Assembly (NCBI GenBank): GCA_009602725.1
Contig: WELB01000039.1
Coordinates: forward strand, 130,112-153,642
DNA length: 23,531 nucleotides
Direction: 5' to 3'
Origin: Spirogloea muscicola
Taxonomy: Eukaryota; Streptophyta; Zygnematophyceae; Spirogloeales; Spirogloeaceae
Shown here: one piece after another, positions 8,803 to 23,424 of the stretch
Numbering within the stretch: the first letter of the stretch is position 1
Layout: each line of letters begins with the position of its first letter
The notes under the pieces: model-generated
What the model saw: only the letters and a program-made list of their open reading frames with translations
Database searches by the model: none
What the model was told of the DNA's origin: nothing
Program-made: the position numbers and the translations under genes

Positions 8803-11610
8803 TTGCAGCCACGCCTGAACCCTAAATCCCGCCCCAACACGAGCCGCCATCGCCAGCCGCGTGCGGCGGCGGCGGCGGCGGCGGCGCGTGAGAGGCAGCG
8901 CCGCCGCCGCNCCCTGCTGGTGGCTCTAGACGACGACGACGGCAACGCGGCGCTGACCCCCACGGCGCTGCCGCTGCCCGGCGGCACCCCGCTGCTGGCG
9001 CGCGCGTCCGCGAGCTTCCAGGACCTGCTGCGCCTGCGCCGCCGCCCGCAGTCGCCGCGCCTCCGCCGCCTCGGCGTCGCGGCCATCCTCATGGTCTTCA
9101 CCAGCTCTCAGGTTGTGCGCGGCACCATCACTTATGGCCTTGTCATTCTGTTGTGGTCTAAGGTTCAAGTGTCAATGTACAGGTCAAGTGTTCAATTCGA
9201 ACAGGCGAAGGTGTCCGAGGTTTCGGCTTTGGCCTGGTCTGCGGGTACTGTGTTCAATTACAATGTGGCAATATTTACGATAATTCAAGCCCATGCGAAC
9301 GAGCAATGCCTTGCTCACGAAGCCCTTGCGCTGGCGTCGAGCACAGGGCCTGCTGACAGCCCTGTCGCGCGGGGAGCGCGGCTATGCGTACGACTACGCG
9401 ACGCTGCCGCTGTTCATTGAGCTCCTCAAGGTGCGAAGTCTATTCCTGTCGTGCATTGATTCGCGCTTTTACTTTTGCCTTGTGGGCGTTCGAGCTCTGT
9501 ACACCCACAGTGGCATGTCAGCTGACTGCAGCAATCGCTCATGCTGTGTCGTCACCCCAGATCATGATCTGCTCCATCATGCTGTGGCGCGAGGCCCGGG
9601 GCCCGCGGCGGCCACAGATCACCGCGACCTGGCGCCAGTTCTGCCTCTTCCCGGCGCTCGCAGCCGTGTACCTCGTCAACAACAACCTGCAGTTCCCGGC
9701 GATCCACCTGCTTGGGCCCGTCACGTACCAGATTCTCAGCAACCTCAAGATCCTCACCACAGGCGTCCTCTTCCGGTGCGTGCGCGGCCGTGCCCGCCTT
9801 CCTGCACTTGGGCTTGGCACCCGCTTTAGCCAGGACGGCGCCTGACGCAGGAGCTCCCCCCTGCTCTGCTGCTCACTGTGACGGCAGGATTGTGTTGCGG
9901 AAGAAGCTCACGATGCTGCAGTGGATGGCGCTGGTCCTCCTCATGGTCGGCACTGCAACGAGCCAGGTCAGTGGCCCCTGCTGCTCAACTGCCTGACCTC
10001 CTTAGCTGTGTACTCCCCTTATTACAGGAGCATTCAGTAGCGTCACATCTTGGGCGGTCACTACAGGGTACAGCCCAGGGTCCAGGGCACCAGTTAGTCT
10101 ACTGGAAGTCGAATTTCGACTTTAGTGGAAGTCGAAATTCCTTCAGAGTGCTTGCCAAACTGCTGGCAAATGTAATGTTTGAGCTCAGTCCGGAGAGGCC
10201 AGAAGCTCTGGTTGCCCCAGCCTGCAGCCCGCCAAGTGCTGCCAGCTCGGAGTCAGTGCAGTACTCGCCAACAAGCCCTGTCGCTGTATGTGCAGCTACT
10301 GTGGTCCCAATCCTGCTCTCATCAAGCCATTTCTGCCTCTTGCGCAGCTTCCTGGCGCAGGCATGGAGGGCGCAGTCTTTCAGGCGCCAGTGGAAGGCTA
10401 CGCTCTAGCTGTGCTCATGGCCTGTCTGTCGGCGGCAGCGGGCGTGTACGCTGAGTACCTGATGAAGAGTAGCAGTGATTCGATCTACTGGCAGAACCTG
10501 CAGCTGTACAGGTCAGCATCACACAGCATCAGCTGCCCTTATTTGCAGCTGCCCAGCATTTCAGTTGCCGGGCTTCATAGCAGTCTTGGTACCAGATCAC
10601 CTCATGGCACCTCAAGCCATAAGGTCATCAAATTTTAGAAGGATTCAGTTGCAGACACTGTCTGATTTGATTGGATCATCAAGACATTCCAGCTGCACTG
10701 GCTGAGGCTGCTGCCGTGCATGCAAGCCTCTGCTCAGCTGTGGCGTCCTCTTCAACGTCCTGATATTGACGGCGCGCGACGTTGGGTACCGTGGCGGCGA
10801 GACAATCTGGTGGCAACGCTTGGGCGCCGGCTTCAATACTGCCACGTGGCTTGTTGTGCTCAACGCCGCCCTCACTGGGCTGCTCGTTTCGTGGATCATC
10901 AAGTACGCTGACAATATCGTCAAGGTTTGCTTTGCAATGCACTTGAGCCAGACCACTCTAAGTCGCATTGTCTGGTCAGATTGATCAAAGAAAGCCTCAA
11001 TTTAGTCCTGGTTTCCTCGACCAAGCACTGCTCAAAACACATGATAGCAAACTTGAGGCATTGGGTGGTAATGTGATTGCGAGTTGTACTTGCAAGTAGA
11101 GCTGATTGTGAACATCACCTCTTAGGTCTACGCAACTTCCACCGCCATGCTGCTGACAACAATCATCTCAGCGGCGCTGTTCGAGTTCAGCGTCACACCT
11201 CAGGTGCTCTTAAGTGATACAATGGTGCTGCTCCTCACATCAACATTACTGCTATCCTGTCACCTGCGTATCGCAATCAACCTCCAGCCCAGTATTATGA
11301 GTACTATACTCAAAGCACTAAGGCCCTTGATTGCTGTTAGTGTCCTACTTCACAGATCCTGTCACTAATTCGTCTGAAGCTGCCCTGGAAAGAGAGCTGT
11401 CAGGGTTGCTTGGATCGTGTGAGCCGCAAGCCCGCTGATGGTGGCAGCGTTGTGGCGCAGGTCTTGCTGGGCATTGTGACCTGCGGGCTGTCCTTGCAGA
11501 TGTACTTCACGCCTGCGCACATCCTTCTCAGCGTGCAGGCATCTGCGGACACCTTTGACGCTGGGGGCCAATCCCTTACTTCTGTGCGCGTGTCCAAGCA
11601 GAGCGACTGA
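8803..11610 (+). CDS. Nucleotide-sugar transporter, CMP-Sia/UDP-Gal transporter type
   Basis: Exons 8803-9111, 9347-9430, 9561-9775, 9888-9966, 10348-10511, 10738-10924, 11126-11203, 11461-11610, all phase-consistent and ending in TGA. The protein is a multi-span Golgi antiporter that would import a nucleotide sugar in exchange for the nucleoside monophosphate (SLC35A, Nuc_sug_transp family). Family landmarks appear in order: VFTSSQ-GLLTALS, YDYATLPLFIELLK, AVYLVNNNLQF, TYQILSNLKILTTGVLFR, LQWMALVLLMVGTATSQ, GVYAEYLMK, SIYWQNLQLY, WWQRL, GLLVSWIIKYADNIVKVYAT and GLSLQMYF. From the first membrane span to the stop it is about 330 aa, the usual family length. The start is unresolved: upstream of that span is about 80 residues of Arg/Ala-rich frame broken by an N at 8911, with no in-frame ATG. 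8803 marks only the open-frame limit. Plants lack sialic acid, so UDP-galactose or a related sugar is the likelier substrate. Confidence 0.88.
8911..8911. other. Ambiguous base N after a GCC run
   Basis: A single N follows GCCGCCGCCGC, inside the unresolved first exon of the transporter. The same local context surrounds the only other N, at 16267. It may hide a collapsed repeat or a gap of unknown length. Confidence 0.9.
10111..10140. repeat. 12-bp perfect hairpin inside a transporter intron
   Basis: GAATTTCGACTT (10111-10122) and AAGTCGAAATTC (10129-10140) are exact reverse complements around a 6-nt loop, in intron 9967-10347. TGGAAGTCGAA is also directly repeated at 10103 and 10126 (period 23). 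The AT-rich stem stands out in a GC-rich gene and could be the remnant of a small inverted-repeat element. Confidence 0.7.
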
Positions 11611-12705: not shown

Positions 12706-14546
12706 TCAGCCATAACACCGAATAGGGTCCGAGCAGCCCTTTGCTGCTGATTGACCGCGACCAATGCGGCCACCCTTTTCAAGGTACTGCTGATGATACG
12801 ACTCCGCAGGGTAGAACTTAGGTGCTGGCTTCACCTCTGTGACAATCTTGCGTCCAATACGTGCCTCCTCCTTGGCAATTGACTCATGCAAAATCTTCTC
12901 CTGCTCTGGCGAGTAGAAGTAAACTGCTGACCGATACTGTGTGCCAACATCGTTACCCTGCATGCATCACACACGTTTATAAATGCTGCATGAGACATTG
13001 CAACAAGTAAGTCATGTCATTCAGAATCAAACAGATGATTGGCTATCTCTTGTGTTTTCCCCCACCCAATACTTATTTTGATAGAATGTGCCAGAGTAGC
13101 TGCATACCTGGCGGTTGAGCTGTGTCGGGTCGTGGCGCTTCCACAGAACTGATAGCAGCTGGTCATAACCAAGCTCCTGCGGGTTGTACTGCACCCTCAC
13201 AACCTCAGCGTGACCCGTGCGACCGCCGCAGACCTCCTCATAGCGCGGCTGGTCAGTCTTGCCGCCTGCGTATCCAACCTCCGTCTTCACCACGCCAGGC
13301 ACACGCTGGAAAGCCAGCTCCACGCCCCAGAAGCACCCGGCACCAAAGGTTGCGAATTCCGTGCCCTGTTGTGCAGGGCCAAGCCAGCTTAGTCAACCAC
13401 AGTCTCCGGTACCTTAGACACCTACTTTTATGGCCTATGTAGACCTCGAGCTGGTCGGTGTGAGCATATCCCCTCTGCCTGCCGCTGCTGCAGCTGCAGA
13501 ACGAATTTCAAGTGCCAATGCTCCCAGCAGAACTGATGTGTTATGCAGATAGTAACCTTCCCTCCTGTTGGCTTGCATGAGACAATAAAAGGGGTTTGCC
13601 ACCAAGCACAAGTCAGGGCAGTGGACATTCTAATACTTGAGGATTTTATCAAAATACCTTGAGCGGCACGTCGTCATCAGGCCCGAGCGCAACGCTGTTC
13701 GACTCGGTCGACATGGCAGCCCGGCTGTTCCCGAAGGGGCCTCCAAACAACCCCTTCATCCGCAGGCTCGCCGGTGCGCTCTGCTCAGCTTCTGCAAAGG
13801 AAACCCCACAAGTCACAGATCAGTCACACTAAAGTGAGGAACACCATTGAGACCGACAAATCAGGTGTGGGCAACGTACTCATGAACCGAAGCATCAGGA
13901 CTGGGGTGGTGGCTGACTGCAACTTGCAGACCTAAGAGGTCTCTGCCTCCCCTGGTGCAACCTCTGCAGAGCGGGACAGAGCTTGCCCTATCGACGAAAA
14001 CACTGGGGAGGAACAAAGGGGACTGACAACCCCAGCCGCAGTAGTCAGGCGGTCACTAAGGCCTGCCCTGGTGGCTTGGCGGGGATGCCGAGCATGCTCG
14101 GACAATCGCCAGACGCACATGCGATCACGACCGCCGAGACGGCGAGGACTCCTCAAACAGACAGCAGCTTGACGAGCTGGAAGGGCGATTGGACCAACAG
14201 CCGGCTCGCTGGACCACTTCAGCTCAGCTTGCTTCATGATAGCCAGCAGCAGAGTGGGGTGCGGATGCATACGGAGAACGCAGCAGCACAGAGAGCAGAC
14301 CGCCAGAGTGGACCACAGAAAGGCGGCGGCGGCAAGGGTCCTCAGAGCGGAGGAGCGCGGGAGCTCACGGGGCCTGGTGCGGCGGAGCAAGCGGGCGGCG
14401 CCGGAGCCGAGGAACGGGGCGCGGAGCGGCGGCGCGGCGGGCGAGGCGCGGGAGGCGGAGGCGAGGGCGGAGGAGCAGCGGCGGGCGAGGGCGGCGGCGG
14501 CGAGCGGGGAGGAGGCTGTGGCGGCAGCGGCGGCCGCGGCGGTCAT
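12706..14546 (-). CDS. msrA: Peptide-methionine (S)-S-oxide reductase, plastid type
   Basis: Exons in transcript order: 14546-14273, 13791-13658, 13365-13108, 12957-12706. They total 918 nt (305 aa plus TGA) and all phases close. MsrA reduces methionine-S-sulfoxide in oxidised proteins using thioredoxin. The catalytic motif GAGCFWG places the active Cys at about residue 147. Further family blocks are [43 protein letters not shown] and YHQQYL. The C-terminus [11 protein letters not shown] carries the two recycling Cys (about 297 and 303) as in plant MsrA. Exon 1 encodes about 90 residues rich in Ala, Ser and Arg and almost free of acidic residues, as in a chloroplast or mitochondrial transit peptide, which explains the excess over the ~260 aa plant form. 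The start is the first ATG in frame. Its exon 1 donor (GTATGC, phase 1) was chosen because it alone fits the next exon. Confidence 0.94.
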
Positions 14547-16397: not shown

Positions 16398-16657
16398 GTG
16401 TGCGAGGGCTGCGCCTGTTGCGCCTGGCTGGCCACTGTGCTCTGTGATGGCATGCTGGGAGCAGCAGCGAGGCCCTTATTGGCCTGCTGCTGGCCACCTG
16501 CTCCGCCAGCCCTCTGCTGCTGCAGCAGATGCGTGGCGGCGCCAGCGGAAGTCGGCCCTTGCTGCGGCAGGCTCATGGGCGCTGACATGCCCATGAGCGC
16601 AGCGGACTGTGCCATGAGGCTCCCTTGGCCACTGGCAATGGCTGAAGAGGGCGGCAT
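16268..16657 (-). CDS. Gln-rich protein fragment (probable, 3' end unresolved)
   Basis: The minus strand reads a Gln/Ser/Ala/Met-rich polypeptide of about 130 residues before the N at 16267. It includes a run of nine Gln, a run of six Gln and QQRKLQQQMQ. The composition resembles low-complexity arms of transcription co-regulators; no domain is visible. The same DNA on the plus strand gives Cys- or Leu-runs with stops, so minus coding is the better reading. 16657 is the first ATG that does not overlap the TPR gene; the frame is open further upstream. Past the N a GTGAGG donor ends a possible exon at 16225. I could not find a next exon. It would be divergent from the TPR gene, 150 bp apart. Confidence 0.45.
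16292..16396. repeat. CTG/CAG trinucleotide runs
   Basis: Six CTG units at 16292-16309 and nine at 16370-16396. They encode Gln runs on the minus strand and are prone to length variation. Confidence 0.85.
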
Positions 16658-16807
16658 GGCGCCCAGGCGCACACTGCCGCCGCCGCCGCCGCCGCCACCG
16701 CCGCTGCTCCGGGCGCCGGCGCCGCGCGCTGGCTTCAGCGGCTCCACAGCTTCCCCGCCCAGAGCTTCGGCGCCGCTCCTCCCGCCTGGCACGACCGCCC
16801 ATCTGTC

Positions 16808-18323
16808 ATGCCCATCGTGCCGGCAGCGAGCGTCGCCGAGGAGATGGCCATGGCTGCCGCCGGAGAAAGCGGCGTCGGCGAGCACGAGCGCCCGGTGGCC
16901 GCCCCGCTGCCGCAGAGCGCCGCATCGGCCAGCGACTACTTTGCCGCCAATCACTACGGCAGCTATGGTTTCCAGATGCGCGCATCGGCCTGCCGGACGG
17001 TCAGCCTCCCCGGGTACTGCGACCACTGGACGCACGCGCCGGAGGGCGGCGTCTCACACGAGGACGTCCTCGGCCCCATGTTCATCGCCGGCGGATTGGG
17101 CATCGGCGGCGGCGGCGGCGGCGGAGGAGGCCACGTGGGCGGAGGCGGGCATGGCAGGAGAGGGGGCGGCCAAGGCGGGTACAATGGCGGCGGCAGCAAC
17201 AATGGCGGCAACGGCGGGAGCGGCGGCGGCGGCGGCAGCATGGACTCGTCCGGCCGAGATCTGTACTACCGGCAGGCGCTCCGCGCGGATCCCGGCAACC
17301 CGCTGCTCCTGCGCAACTACGCCCGCTTCCTCTTCGAGGTACACCTGTCCCCAACTGGCAATGGCCGCTCTTCCCAGCTGTCATCGGGAATCTGGGGTTG
17401 CAGCTATGACAGCTCTGTCGACAGCTGTACGCTGGCGGCTGCAGGGGTCGTGGAAGGTCTGCTATGGCAGCCATGTCAGTGTCACTGGCATTGTTGAGCA
17501 ACTGGCACCCTCACTGCTAGGCCGCCAGCTGGTCCAGTGGCGAGTCTTACTGTCATAAGTTCGGTGATTGCGTGAAGCAGTTGTCTCTGACAAGGTCCGG
17601 GTCAATCTGCAGCTGCAGTGCTTTTCCCTCTGGCATTGGGTTACTTGCCAGACGTGGTTGGCGTCTGATGCTATCTTGGCCTGCGGCTGCTCCACTCTTG
17701 CAGATTCAGCAGGACCACGTCCGTGCGGAGGAGTACTACGAGCGCGCAATCCTGGCCAATCCGGGGGATGGGGAAATCCTTGCGCAGTATGCAAAGCTGG
17801 TCTGGGATGCACACCACGACACGGAGCGCGCCAGCAGCTACTTTGAGCAGGCCATCCGAGCTGCTCCCGAGGATTGGTAAGCCCTTAATGACGTAGCGCA
17901 TCCTGCTGCCCTGGCTGTGTGTGTCTGCAGCTTGCTGTCACTCTGCCAACAAGTTGATCCGCCACCCACCATGGCAGATGGACTCGTATCTTCCCTGGGC
18001 TGCTTGTGGGCCATCTGAGCTTCGCTACTTGCAATGTAGATAAATGTAGACCCTGAAGTTTACGAGGGTGTTAGCATACTCAGCAGGCCACATGAGATGC
18101 GTTGCCAGTGGTCAACTCCCTTTGCTGACAGCCGGATCTGGCATTATCATGTTGCAGCTATGTGCTCGCAGCACATGCCTCGTTCTTGTGGAACTCAGAG
18201 AATGGAGATGAGAGCCAAGCTGCGGGCGGCAGTGATGAGACAGTGCCGCTGACCTGCCCTGCGCTCGTTGCACACGGGTCAGCGCTCCTTGGACGCGGTC
18301 CCGCTGCCACCGCGTCCACCTAA
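16808..18323 (+). CDS. TPR protein of the plant Gly-rich/TPR family
   Basis: Exons 16808-17338, 17704-17876 and 18158-18323 total 870 nt (289 aa, TAA stop). The phase 2 junction restores the Cys of EDCYVLA. Residues 1-97 are non-repetitive and include PMFIAGGLGIGG. Residues about 98-143 are almost all Gly with Asn/Ser/His. From residue 150 come TPR-like helical pairs with the family signatures YYRQAL-x-ADPGNPLLLRNYARFL, AEEYYERAILANPGDGEILAQYAKLVW, RASSYFEQAIRAAPEDCYVLA and ASFLWN. This order (GLGIG, poly-Gly, three TPR-like units) is that of a land-plant family of unknown function, typified by Arabidopsis AT1G04530 and AT5G20190. A protein-binding scaffold is inferred. 16808 is the first ATG in this frame; an upstream exon cannot be excluded. 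The last ~45 residues are not family-like. Confidence 0.87.
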
Positions 18324-19075: not shown

Positions 19076-22000
19076 TTACACTAGTCCTCCAAGTGCTGCG
19101 CAGACAACATGTGCCATGATATTGGTGTGTGCCCGCACAACATTCATGTCATAGTGTAGTCCGTCCCCCAGCACCTGGTCTGGCCGTGATTGGGTTGTCT
19201 GCCAGTAAACGAAAGGGAACTCATCTCAACAGCTTGACAATATACCTACATGCATTCGATCCCAACTCAGCAGCCCTACATGTGCCTGGCTTGAAGACAT
19301 GGTTATCCTCCACACTGTACTACTCATGACAACACAACCTGACAAGAAGCACTGAAGCAATCTGCCAGCAGGAGACCAAGCCAAAGTCCACAACGCACCT
19401 GATAAAAGTCAACAAGAGTGTAGCCCTCCTCGTGGAATCGGGTGTAAGCCCAGTCCTGGTAGAGCTCATGCCTCTCACGTGCCCGCCAGTAATCCACCTT
19501 CTTGACTTTGCCAACCCACAGGAATGGCGACTTGACCCATACCAGCCGCGTCGTTGGCAACAGCGATGCCTTCAGCGTGCCCAAGAGGTCCTCCATGTCG
19601 CGCTTGAATTCTGCAAAGTCCTCCAAGAGACTGCCACCCTTGCGGCCAGCCTGCTCCTGGACCTCAGCAGTTCCCGCATTGAGGACAATGAAGTCGGGGG
19701 CACGTACTGACCCGGACTTTATCAACCTCAGGAAATGGTTGCTGAGCTCCAGCTCATCCGGCCCGCCGGGCTACAAGACGCATACCAAAAGGCATCAAGG
19801 AGCAGCCGTGAGCGACGGACGGGAGAGCAAGCACTTGCCCTATGCGCTAGGATAGTGCGGATGGCCTAACACGCACCAGCAGTGGAGGAGCCTTGGCCGC
19901 TATCTTTCATTCTCATGTCAGTGTCAGCAGTGGTCAACAAAACTTAATTGCAGGTACAACATGCACCTGCTTATGCGGCTGACGGGAAACCCAGTTGCGG
20001 GCCATGTAGCCAACGCGCGGAACTTCCTCGAGGAGCACTGCCTCCAGCAGAGCACGAGCCCCTCCCTCTCGCTTCGTTGCCCTGCAAACAGTAACTTATT
20101 CCCTCAGCAGAGTCATTAATATGCTGATAGTAGCAAGTGACTGTAGCACACACGCACGGTCCAACGCTTGGATTGCTGCATTGGCTGTCACAAACTGCAC
20201 AGTCAACGGTCGAAGCCCTGGCCAGGGTGTACTAATGTTCGATAGAGACCGTCTGTCTGGCAGCTCCGACATACCGGGAGGTGTCCTTTGCCAACAGAGG
20301 AGAAGCAGTTGCCTTGGAGGTGACAGGGCTCTTGCTCGCCGGGCTCTTGGGCAGCTCCCAGTCCCGCCTCATGACTGCCATCTGACACGGAACAAACACG
20401 CATGCCCTTACGCATTGTGGATGAGCCAAGCTGAATATGACGCACCTCTCGCACCACTGTGTCCCGCTTACTGTTGGTAAGGCAACTCTCCTTCTCCCAA
20501 TTGCTGATGCTTTGCGAAGAGAAGATGCCAGCTGAGTGAAAGAGCTGGCCGAGGCTGCGGGCTTCCCACCAGCTTGGCGAGCTCGTTCGTGACCATGCGG
20601 GCATTCATGTCGCCGATGAATTGCACCCAAGTGCCATGCAGGCACCGCCGGAGCTCGTCCCCTATGACAGATCTGGCATAACATGCAGCATGGGCTTTCA
20701 GGAGCAAGAGGCTGTGGCAGCTCAAGATGTCTTCTCCAGCCTTGGCGGACGTTCCATGGCTGCCAGAGCTCCAGCACACAGACTTTGAGGGTTGTAGACT
20801 TACCTGTACTTGCAGTTGTCAGCCTCCCAGGTATCACTGCTTGTCCACCTCCCCGGGCTGTCACCGTCCCGGCACGGCGGCTTCGCCACTTCAGCGCCCG
20901 ACTCGGGCAGCAAGCTAGAGGCCGATGGACAACAAAGTCCTGGTCAGCCTGGAGCTCGTCAGTTGCTGACAGAGGATCAAGCAGAGGCTTCCACCGAAGT
21001 CACACAATCCATCATCTCTCCCTGTGACGAGCTGCAACGTCAGCGGCCTGCTGACTCAAAGCAGGTGCATTGCTCAAGAATCCCGCTGGTGCATGATGGC
21101 AGTGGCTCTTGGGGCAGAATGGAGGAGCTTGCGGTGGCAGGCACCTGCTTCGTGTGCCCATGGCATCGCCTGCCCTGACGCGCTGCGGGGCAAGGACCAT
21201 GGGGCATGGCTTCGCTGCACCCACATTTACAGGCGTATTAGCAGGCCAAGAGAGGTCAATCAAGTGGCCCTACACGTTGTTGCTCATCCAGAATGTCAGT
21301 GTAGAATGCCATCACTATCAGCTTCCACTATCCAAACACCTAAGCCATGAATCTAGAGTGAGGTGATAGTGGAGGGTCATCAGTTCTTACTGGGCGGACA
21401 CGTGGGGCACGGGGGGGGGGGCTTGGGGCAGGTCTTCTGCGGGGGGCAGGTCTTCTGCGGCGGGCAGGGCTGTGCAGGCGGACAGAGCACCGCAGGATTG
21501 CAAGCGACTGGCAGCGCCAGCGGCGGGCAAGCTGGGGGCGGCGGCGGGCAGGCTTTCTCCACAGGCCGCACGCTCTCGATCAGCGACCGCAGATGCGAGT
21601 TACCCTGCAATGGCCACGACAGAATTTCCAGCGAGCTTACTTGTTTGTTGGGTGCTGCTGTATGACTCATATGGCCACTGCTAAATGCAGCCAATACCAT
21701 AGATAGCTCGCGGTGAGGCTCCAATTGAGCTGATGGCTTGGTCGACCGCTGCAATTGAGCTCATCTCAACATCCTCAAGCCAGGGAGAAGGCAGAAGATG
21801 CAACCTGCACACTGAGGGCATTGCGCAGCTCCTCTTTTGTGGACTCCGACACTGTGGAGGCAACCAAGGCAGCCACCTTCTCGCGCTCCTCCTGCTTGTC
21901 CTCCACACTTGTCGTTGGCAGCTGCTTCGCAGACTCTGAGACCCTGAAGGCAACCAATGCGGCCACCTTCTCGCGATCTTCCTGCTTCTCCTCCTCGGTT

Positions 22001-23424
22001 GCCGTAGTGGGCGGCTGCACGTGCGTGCGCTCCTTCTGCAGCACGTGCCACGTTGCTAGGCCAGCTGTGATAGATGAAGACTTGGCAGCAACCAATATGT
22101 GCCGGATTAGCTTTGGAAAAGCGGCAAGAATAGAGTATCTGGGGTTTAAGGAATGAAGCGGCGCTCACGCGGACATGCTCGACTGCCGCCTGCAGCCGCG
22201 TGCTCAAGTCCGTGTTGAGGGAAATCTGCAAGCGAGCCTGGCATTAGTCCAACTCTGAGAACTGTGGATCGGACTGTCCCATAGCTTACATGTAGACACC
22301 CCATACAAGCTGAGATTGCTCCCTCGCTTGTGACTCTTTGAGCAAGAAGCTAAGTGGCCACCAGAGCACCTTCTGCCGTTTGCTTCTTTGCATGTTGGGT
22401 ACAAAGTCAATGAGTGTAAGCATCCGCCTAAATTCCAGCTTCCTGACTTGTCAAGCACGCCCGTACCTGTGACCCAAGCGTAGCAATCTGGACTCTCAGA
22501 GTCTCCTCCTGCAGCACAGATTCACCAAAGGGGATGCTCGTCAGCAAAAGCAGCTCAGCTGCATGCGTGCTTGATGTCACCTGGGCATTACAGGTGATTG
22601 CACTTACGATTTAGGCAGGAAATTGATCACAAGTGTGTTGCTCTGTAAGCGTTACTCTGTCAACTGGCGCGGCTCTGCTGGCCGGAAAATATGCTAGTCA
22701 ACAGCAGACAAGAGAGGAAGTTCTGAACACGGCCACACTGACCTGAGAGGTGTCGCGTGGGGGGCAGGCTGGCGGCCGAGGGGCTGGAAGGAGAAGGAGG
22801 GCAGCGCAGACGGTGGCGCACAGCACGATGGCAACCAGCGGCAGGGAGCAGTGCGTCGAGATGGCGACGGGCAGCCGCGCCGCGACCTTCTTCAGGAACA
22901 CCTTGGGCGGGTCCCAGTCGGGGCTCCAGTCTGCCGCCACTGCGCAGCCGCGTGCATCTGTCCCGCACGCACGAGGTGCCCAATACGGTCTTCAGCGGCC
23001 GAGACCAGATGGTGCTCCTAGCATTGGCTTGACAAATATAATTGCTCATATAATTATCATGTGCCACTGTGCTAGGCTGTGCCAGCTCGGTTCAAGCTGC
23101 AATAGTGCTGGGCTTGCAGACACGGCGACTGGCGTCGAGCCGGCCAGCTGCCAGCAGAATTGGTAGGTGGGGTTGGCGGCTCTGGACATGGATGAGGGAG
23201 ACGCTTGGGGGAAGAAGGTGCAGATGAAGGTTCGAACTCCCGACGTATGAGTTGTGAATTCGTCGCGATGAGAGGAGGGAGGGCAGAGAGGAGGAAGGGA
23301 TCAGCAGCGGGCAGCGGCAGCGACCTGCAGAGCGCTCGCGGCGGGCCTTGGAGGGCGAGCGCTCGCCAGGGCCACCATTGGCCTCCCAGTTGGCGGCCTC
23401 GCGGGGGGCTCGCGAGCGCTCCAT
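19076..23424 (-). CDS. Type II membrane PC-esterase/SGNH-like protein
   Basis: Twelve exons in transcript order: 23424-23325, 22939-22743, 22580-22467, 22225-22169, 22035-21805, 21604-21391, 20939-20804, 20672-20570, 20381-20275, 20081-19967, 19770-19399, 19198-19076. They total 1,869 nt (622 aa) with all phases closing. Layout: a short basic cytosolic N-terminus; one membrane span (about 66-84); a coiled stalk (about 100-230) with two 30-residue repeats sharing REKVAALVA; a Pro/Cys hinge (252-304, nine Cys); then a PC-esterase domain (the Pmr5/TBL and Cas1p group). Domain landmarks: CRDGDSPGRW (327-336), WEADNCKYR, FIGDMNAR (368-375), VLNAG (487-491) and DGLHY (594-598), the DxxH Asp-His pair. 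Known relatives O-acetylate wall or surface glycans in the Golgi. The usual nucleophile in GDS is Met372 here, so activity is doubtful. The exon 8 to exon 9 junction (donor GTGGGA) is the weakest; a stronger donor nearby does not keep the frame. Confidence 0.8.
21391..21604 (-). repeat. Pro/Cys-rich hinge exon with CPPQKT repeat
   Basis: This exon of the PC-esterase gene encodes nine Cys among runs of Pro, with CPPQKT twice in tandem. An 11-base G run on the top strand (21411-21421) encodes consecutive Pro, which makes it a frameshift-prone site for sequencing or replication. Confidence 0.7.

Follow-up and report, generated by a model that had tools for sequence, protein, structure and literature searches.

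The stretch of Spirogloea muscicola DNA analyzed here (assembly GCA_009602725.1, contig WELB01000039.1, positions 130,112 to 153,642 of the forward strand; 23,531 nt, hereafter the window) contains a minus-strand gene in which methionine occupies the position of the catalytic serine of an NXPE/PC-esterase-like domain. The methionine is fixed in three copies of the gene, the domain is under purifying selection, and its block I is related in sequence to that of a gene in the same genome that carries the usual GDS motif. Judged from these sequences, the product is probably a type II membrane-anchored NXPE/PC-esterase-like pseudoenzyme, which would bind glycans or act as a regulator in O-acetylation.

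Gene model and predicted protein layout

Three copies of the gene were found in the genome, on contigs C39 (the window), C42, and C8. Reading of the window together with alignment to the two other copies gave a 12-exon model running from 23424 to about 19076 (Table 1). The exons are predicted, and their splice sites were deduced from GT/AG signals, the phase of the reading frame, and conservation in the three copies. The predicted protein is 598 amino acids long. Its single hydrophobic segment, with a Kyte-Doolittle maximum of 2.82 in the 19-residue stretch from residue 66, is consistent with the secreted or membrane-anchored character of PC-esterases, with a topology predicted from sequence. 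The charged repeat in exon 5 is possibly a coiled stalk, the coiled coil being a prediction. The SGNH-like domain runs from CRDGDSPGRW to AHVVC, and the cysteines at its two ends are invariant in the three copies (CRDGDS or CQDGDS at the start, AHVVC at the end); the disulfide itself is predicted. In the hinge encoded by exon 6 (21391-21604, minus strand), which is of equal length in the three copies, a CPPQKT unit is duplicated, and the hinge resembles a wall protein.

Table 1. Predicted features of the minus-strand gene, in window coordinates
Feature	Position	Strand	Description
Exon 1	23325..23424	-	Predicted start MERSRAPREA; open and gap-free in three copies
Exon 2	22743..22939	-	Basic stretch, then single hydrophobic segment, the predicted membrane anchor (residues about 64-84)
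Exon 3	22467..22508	-	Stalk; three-copy alignment
Exon 4	22169..22225	-	Stalk; three-copy alignment
Exon 5	21805..22035	-	Charged repeat REKVAALVA..VSES; three-copy alignment
Exon 6	21391..21604	-	Cys/Pro-rich hinge, CPPPPPACPP...CPPQKTCPPQKTCPKPPPPCPTCPP; three-copy alignment
Exon 7	20804..20939	-	Start of SGNH-like domain, CRDGDSPGRWTSSDTWEADNCKYR; NXPE4_C match starts at Trp of DTW
Exon 8	20570..20672	-	Block I with FIGDMNAR; exon reads SVIGDELRRCLHGTWVQFIGDMNARMVTNELAKL
Met348 codon (ATG)	20606..20608	-	At catalytic Ser position; plus strand reads CAT
Exon 9	20275..20381	-	MAVMRRDWELPK...DTS; three-copy alignment
Exon 10	19967..20081	-	ATKREGGARALLEAVLLEEVPRVGYMARNW...; three-copy alignment
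Exon 11	19399..19770	-	Block III region PDFIVLNAGTAEV; W/H/N position is Ala; Lipase_GDSL_2 match, E 0.0012, sub-threshold
Exon 12	19076 (about)..19198	-	DGLHY (Asp570, His573); C-terminal Cys; stop TAA

A longer block I exon, read past the donor after 20570 (KLVGSPQP...), was considered and rejected. This reading is open in C39 and C42 and meets a TAA in C8, and the intron at 20569-20382 was therefore kept, a judgement made from sequence. The first 70 nt of this intron (window 20569-20500) are conserved in 62 of 70 columns among the three copies, compared with 88 of 118 in the remainder, and are possibly a splicing signal or an alternative exon.

Methionine at the serine position of block I

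The initial annotation had read block I as FIGDMNAR, with the methionine codon at 20606-20608. This was confirmed on the minus strand, within one exon that covers exactly 20672-20570. The residues of interest are Met348, Asp570, and His573 in the present model; the numbers given previously (372, 594, and 597) differ from these by a constant offset of 24, indicating that both models agree from the methionine to the histidine and differ only upstream.

The proposal that the methionine sits where GDS has its serine was likewise borne out by comparison with an NXPE-like gene from elsewhere in this genome (contigs C5, C54, and C179), to which block I aligns with methionine opposite serine. The NXPE-like gene reads W(x4)CKYR(x9)CL(x8)GDSVAMQ and the window gene reads W(x4)CKYR(x9)CL(x8)GDMNARM, with the same spacing and the same cysteine pattern. 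Alignment of the three copies to the NXPE-like gene (VVGDSVAMQ) with hhalign gave 46 gap-free columns at 37% identity, with a probability of 50% and an E value of 1.6e-4, compared with 0.25 in the reversed control. Block I was all that the window gene and this sister gene had in common in the hhalign comparison, their C-terminal halves being left unaligned. When four GDS PC-esterase loci were used instead as a group, GDM was again paired with GDS, weakly (E 0.055; reversed, 0.54), and one of those four loci used alone gave no block I match. The proteins compared with hhalign were joined by hand from exons and are approximate sequences. Furthermore, the window domain and the sister gene both match position 1 of the NXPE4_C profile at a tryptophan exactly 30 residues before the methionine or serine. 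A shifted serine within block I was ruled out by the gap-free spacing.

Three copies under purifying selection

In DNA, the two other copies share 88% and 86% identity with the window copy over 6.5 and 7 kb, introns included. All three encode FIGDMNARMVTNELAKL by identical nucleotides (51/51). The identical run at block I measures 57 nt and is one of eight identical runs of at least 40 nt, three of which are longer, all outside the domain; it is notable, not unique. Over the coding sequence up to the last conserved cysteine (591 codons, 1773 nt), there are no gaps among the three copies, while the introns contain 79 to 120 gap columns. Ratios of dN/dS (Nei-Gojobori) for the three pairs, all drawn from one genome, were 0.16, 0.21, and 0.22 for the domain, 0.20 to 0.27 for the whole, and 0.17 to 0.34 for the N-terminal part.

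The window copy taken alone could have been read as a pseudogene or an assembly artefact, that is, as a copy in decay or a miscalled base. The same methionine in two further copies indicates that it is not a base error, and the ratios of 0.16 to 0.22 indicate that the nucleophile-less domain is under purifying selection and is not decaying. With the methionine agreed by three copies, 1773 nt free of gaps, and dN/dS between 0.16 and 0.34 across the whole, the N-terminal part, and the domain, such a reading is barely credible, and an error of sequencing or assembly was rejected, as was decay into a pseudogene, on the agreement of the copies and on dN/dS.

Exon queries detected no closer paralogues within the genome, matches beyond the three copies appearing only at E > 2. 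On contigs C39/C42/C8 and C5/C54/C179, genes are present in two or three similar copies, as though the assembly combined diverged haplotypes, or the subgenomes of a hybrid or polyploid.

Block III and the retained Asp-His pair

In line with the initial annotation, the partner aspartate and histidine are kept in DGLHY of the last exon, a motif that is invariant in the three copies. The surrounding fold signatures had also been described as intact. This holds for the strand and turn, but the active-site residue after VLNAG appears to be absent. Block III reads VLNAGTAEV in the window and ILNVGTGEV and ILNAGTGEV in the other copies, and the position after VLNAG, which is W or H in PC-esterases and N in SGNH proteins, is A, G, and G in the three copies. 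The register was taken from a weak GDSL alignment, in which GvNDV lies over GtgEV (E 0.89), and by eye from VVLSVGLHDG (VGLHD) of the sister gene. On this weak register, the second active-site position appears to have been lost as well, which we consider likely.

Of the residues that characterize SGNH proteins (Ser, Gly, Asn, and His of blocks I, II, III, and V), the window gene would thus have lost those at the Ser and Asn positions and kept the His, in an assignment that covers these three positions, the block II Gly not having been located. In the published definition, PC-esterases have GDS, DxxH, and, in place of the SGNH Asn, an almost invariant W/H (PMC2824669). Here, DxxH is present as DGLHY, the catalytic Ser of GDS is replaced in all three copies (GDM), and NAGTA, NVGTG, and NAGTG appear to stand in place of a W/H at the Asn position.

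The invariance of DGLHY, together with the many serines and threonines that are invariant in the domain, could also indicate an active enzyme with a relocated nucleophile, in which a different conserved Ser, Thr, or Cys is activated by Asp570-His573, or in which this pair serves as a base without a covalent intermediate. However, the block III position is apparently lost too and differs among the copies (A, G, G), block I has kept its spacing with no shifted serine, and the other block I motifs in the genome are GDS in 34 of 35 cases, with GDR as the exception. We therefore regard a relocated nucleophile as quite improbable.

Relation to NXPE and PC-esterase families

The label of PC-esterase domain in the initial annotation proved too strong. 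The PC-esterase profile PF13839 did not match the window domain at E <= 10, and the only relevant Pfam matches were sub-threshold ones to NXPE4_C (PF24536; 16.5 bits against a cut-off of 27; E 0.0067; profile positions 1-44 of 220) and, in the C-terminal part, to Lipase_GDSL_2 (19.8 bits against a cut-off of 32.9). Each of the three copies shows both matches, in the expected order. The sister NXPE-like gene has the same two weak matches, also below the cut-offs, plus a weak PC-Esterase match. The window gene was absent from the matches in exon-level searches of the genome with PF13839, NXPE4_C, and Lipase_GDSL_2, and among the 91 exon-level PF13839 matches there was no row for C39, C42, or C8:856k; this absence is weak evidence either way, because introns split the motifs of the gene. 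Comparison with solved structures gave two matches, neither of them significant (E 0.71 and 0.89). A structure prediction, made for a single 124-aa exon, had a mean pLDDT of 44.6 and a pTM of 0.41, values too low to inform on the active site.

It is conceivable that the domain is only distantly SGNH-like and was never an NXPE/PC-esterase enzyme, the GDM resemblance being that of a structural turn. The lack of a PF13839 match, the scores below cut-off for the two other profiles, the absence of the gene from the exon-level searches with all three families, and the lack of a significant structural match would all fit such a domain. On the other hand, two independent sub-threshold matches in the correct order in three copies, the recurrence of both in the sister gene together with the weak PC-Esterase match, and a block I homology at E 1.6e-4 (0.25 when reversed) argue for a closer relationship, and we consider a merely distant one unlikely.

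No relatives outside the genome were found in viral_contigs, phages, PHROGs, or genome_contigs. The lone genome_contigs match (L096) was taken as chance; it lies on the strand opposite a 196-aa open reading frame, which looks like an aromatic amino acid hydroxylase.

PC-esterase-like loci elsewhere in the genome

The assembly comprises 153,112,186 bases in 471 contigs, and its genes for chlorophyll a/b-binding proteins (39 exon-level matches at E <= 1e-10) indicate a photosynthetic eukaryote. The 91 exon-level PF13839 matches were grouped by eye into 37 loci, of which 36 were examined; the locus not included, on C329, seems to be cut off by the contig edge ahead of its block I. Block I was found in 35 of the 36 loci (the exception being L082), as GDS in 34 and as GDR in one. 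A small profile made from 11 block I peptides, that of the window among them, located 33 of these, and two (L083 and L084) were found by eye. Several of these 35 loci score under the Pfam cut-off. Nor can the loci be counted as independent, as many represent two or three copies of one gene.

The GDR locus (L052; G000:C7:226300-228300, minus strand) reads FVGDRVVGN, with arginine for the catalytic serine, and keeps DCTHWCLPG. Like the window gene, it lacks the serine and retains DxxH. Unlike the window gene, it is a clear PF13839 member (E 4.8e-29), has arginine instead of methionine, and is without a close copy in the rest of the genome, where the next best match shows 28% identity. A Cas1/RWA-type acyltransferase (Cas1_AcylT) was also detected in the genome, over its cut-off.

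A probable pseudoenzyme

The residues in question are essential in characterized relatives. In NXPE1, S355A abolishes activity and D526A reduces it (PMC12216134), and in TBL29 the Ser, Asp, and His are all required (PMC6110886). Of the possibilities raised in the initial annotation, that of a pseudoenzyme is supported by the fixation of the methionine in three copies, the apparent loss at block III, and purifying selection on the domain. A catalytically dead, selected protein would be the simplest reading of methionine for serine combined with the block III change. Lacking the serine, the protein could form no acyl-serine intermediate and hence most likely neither transfers nor hydrolyzes acetyl groups.

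Under this reading, a basic N-terminal tail, one membrane segment, and a charged and Cys/Pro-rich stalk would carry, at the C terminus, an SGNH-like domain of the NXPE/PC-esterase type, in a predicted type II layout and with a predicted fold, and this domain should face the Golgi lumen or the cell surface. The catalytic serine is fixed as methionine, the equivalent of the block III W/H (or N) would now be small (Ala/Gly), and Asp-x-x-His is kept. The protein may have been retained for binding or for a partner role, either holding a glycan acceptor or docking on active O-acetyltransferases, of which this genome has many candidates. The membrane-anchored appearance, the GDS TBL-type genes, and the Cas1-type acyltransferase in the genome make a glycan-binding or partner role in O-acetylation our best guess. 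The main point against a dead enzyme is that Asp-x-x-His is fully conserved among the three copies, although a protein without catalysis need not retain it; the pair may bind a ligand or stabilize the fold, or it may mark other chemistry. More speculatively, a green-algal lineage may have turned an NXPE-like acetyltransferase into a dedicated, membrane-anchored, noncatalytic Golgi subunit for O-acetylation, with Asp-His as a ligand-binding pair, and GDM and GDR would then stand for two or more separate origins of such proteins in this genome. We hold this extension to be possible and somewhat doubtful.

Among known systems, the window gene resembles the NXPE family (NXPE1, a sialic acid O-acetyltransferase; PF24536) in its predicted N-terminal membrane anchor and C-terminal domain, in the block I spacing (by a sub-threshold match), and in a DxxH as in NXPE1 (PMC12216134). 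It differs in having methionine for the essential serine, in the absence of a neurexophilin domain from its Pfam matches, and in its score below the cut-off. With PF13839 proteins (TBL/PMR5, Cas1p, and CASD1) it shares DxxH, a cysteine at both domain ends, and a predicted membrane-anchored layout, but it has no PF13839 match at E <= 10, no GDS, and no W/H at the block III position, as that family is defined in PMC2824669.

Proteins that are retained despite having lost the serine or their activity are already known in the wider SGNH group; what is new here is an NXPE-like, membrane-anchored algal version. The known examples, At1g54030, Oskar, and the insect PAF-AH homologues, belong to other SGNH subfamilies, and none is an NXPE-like membrane-anchored algal protein. 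At1g54030 of Arabidopsis has Ser changed to Gly and is without lipase activity (PMC4757993), and Oskar and the insect PAF-AH homologues are SGNH relatives described as inactive and kept for another function (PMC3905857). The window gene is like these in being a retained, active-site-deficient relative, its own inactivity being predicted. Our literature searches found no GDM-type PC-esterase, which is no proof of absence.

Little is understood about the O-acetylation of walls and glycans in green algae; the Spirogloea genome has 91 exon-level PF13839 matches. A 2018 review states that algae seem to be without TBL29- or AXY9-like proteins (PMC6110886), and a 2010 analysis reports an expansion of the PMR5 subfamily in chlorophytes (PMC2824669). 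A nucleophile-less member under selection would show that the fold can act as a binding or regulatory part, and the window gene offers a natural "Ser to X" case for comparison with the NXPE1 S355A mutant.

Other features of the window

On the plus strand, an exon at about 9500-9800 resembles a nucleotide-sugar transporter (PF04142, E 6.7e-6, slightly below the cut-off), and a second peptide upstream of it (about 9000-9300) has no Pfam match. A peptide methionine sulfoxide reductase exon lies at 13027-13392 on the minus strand (PF01625, E 1.9e-35). A gene for a TPR-repeat protein with a Gly-rich N-terminal part, its peptide joined over exons, occupies about 16640-18210 on the plus strand. At positions 1-120 there is a simple repeat, equivalent to about 40 Phe codons when read on the plus strand and to Lys when read on the minus strand.
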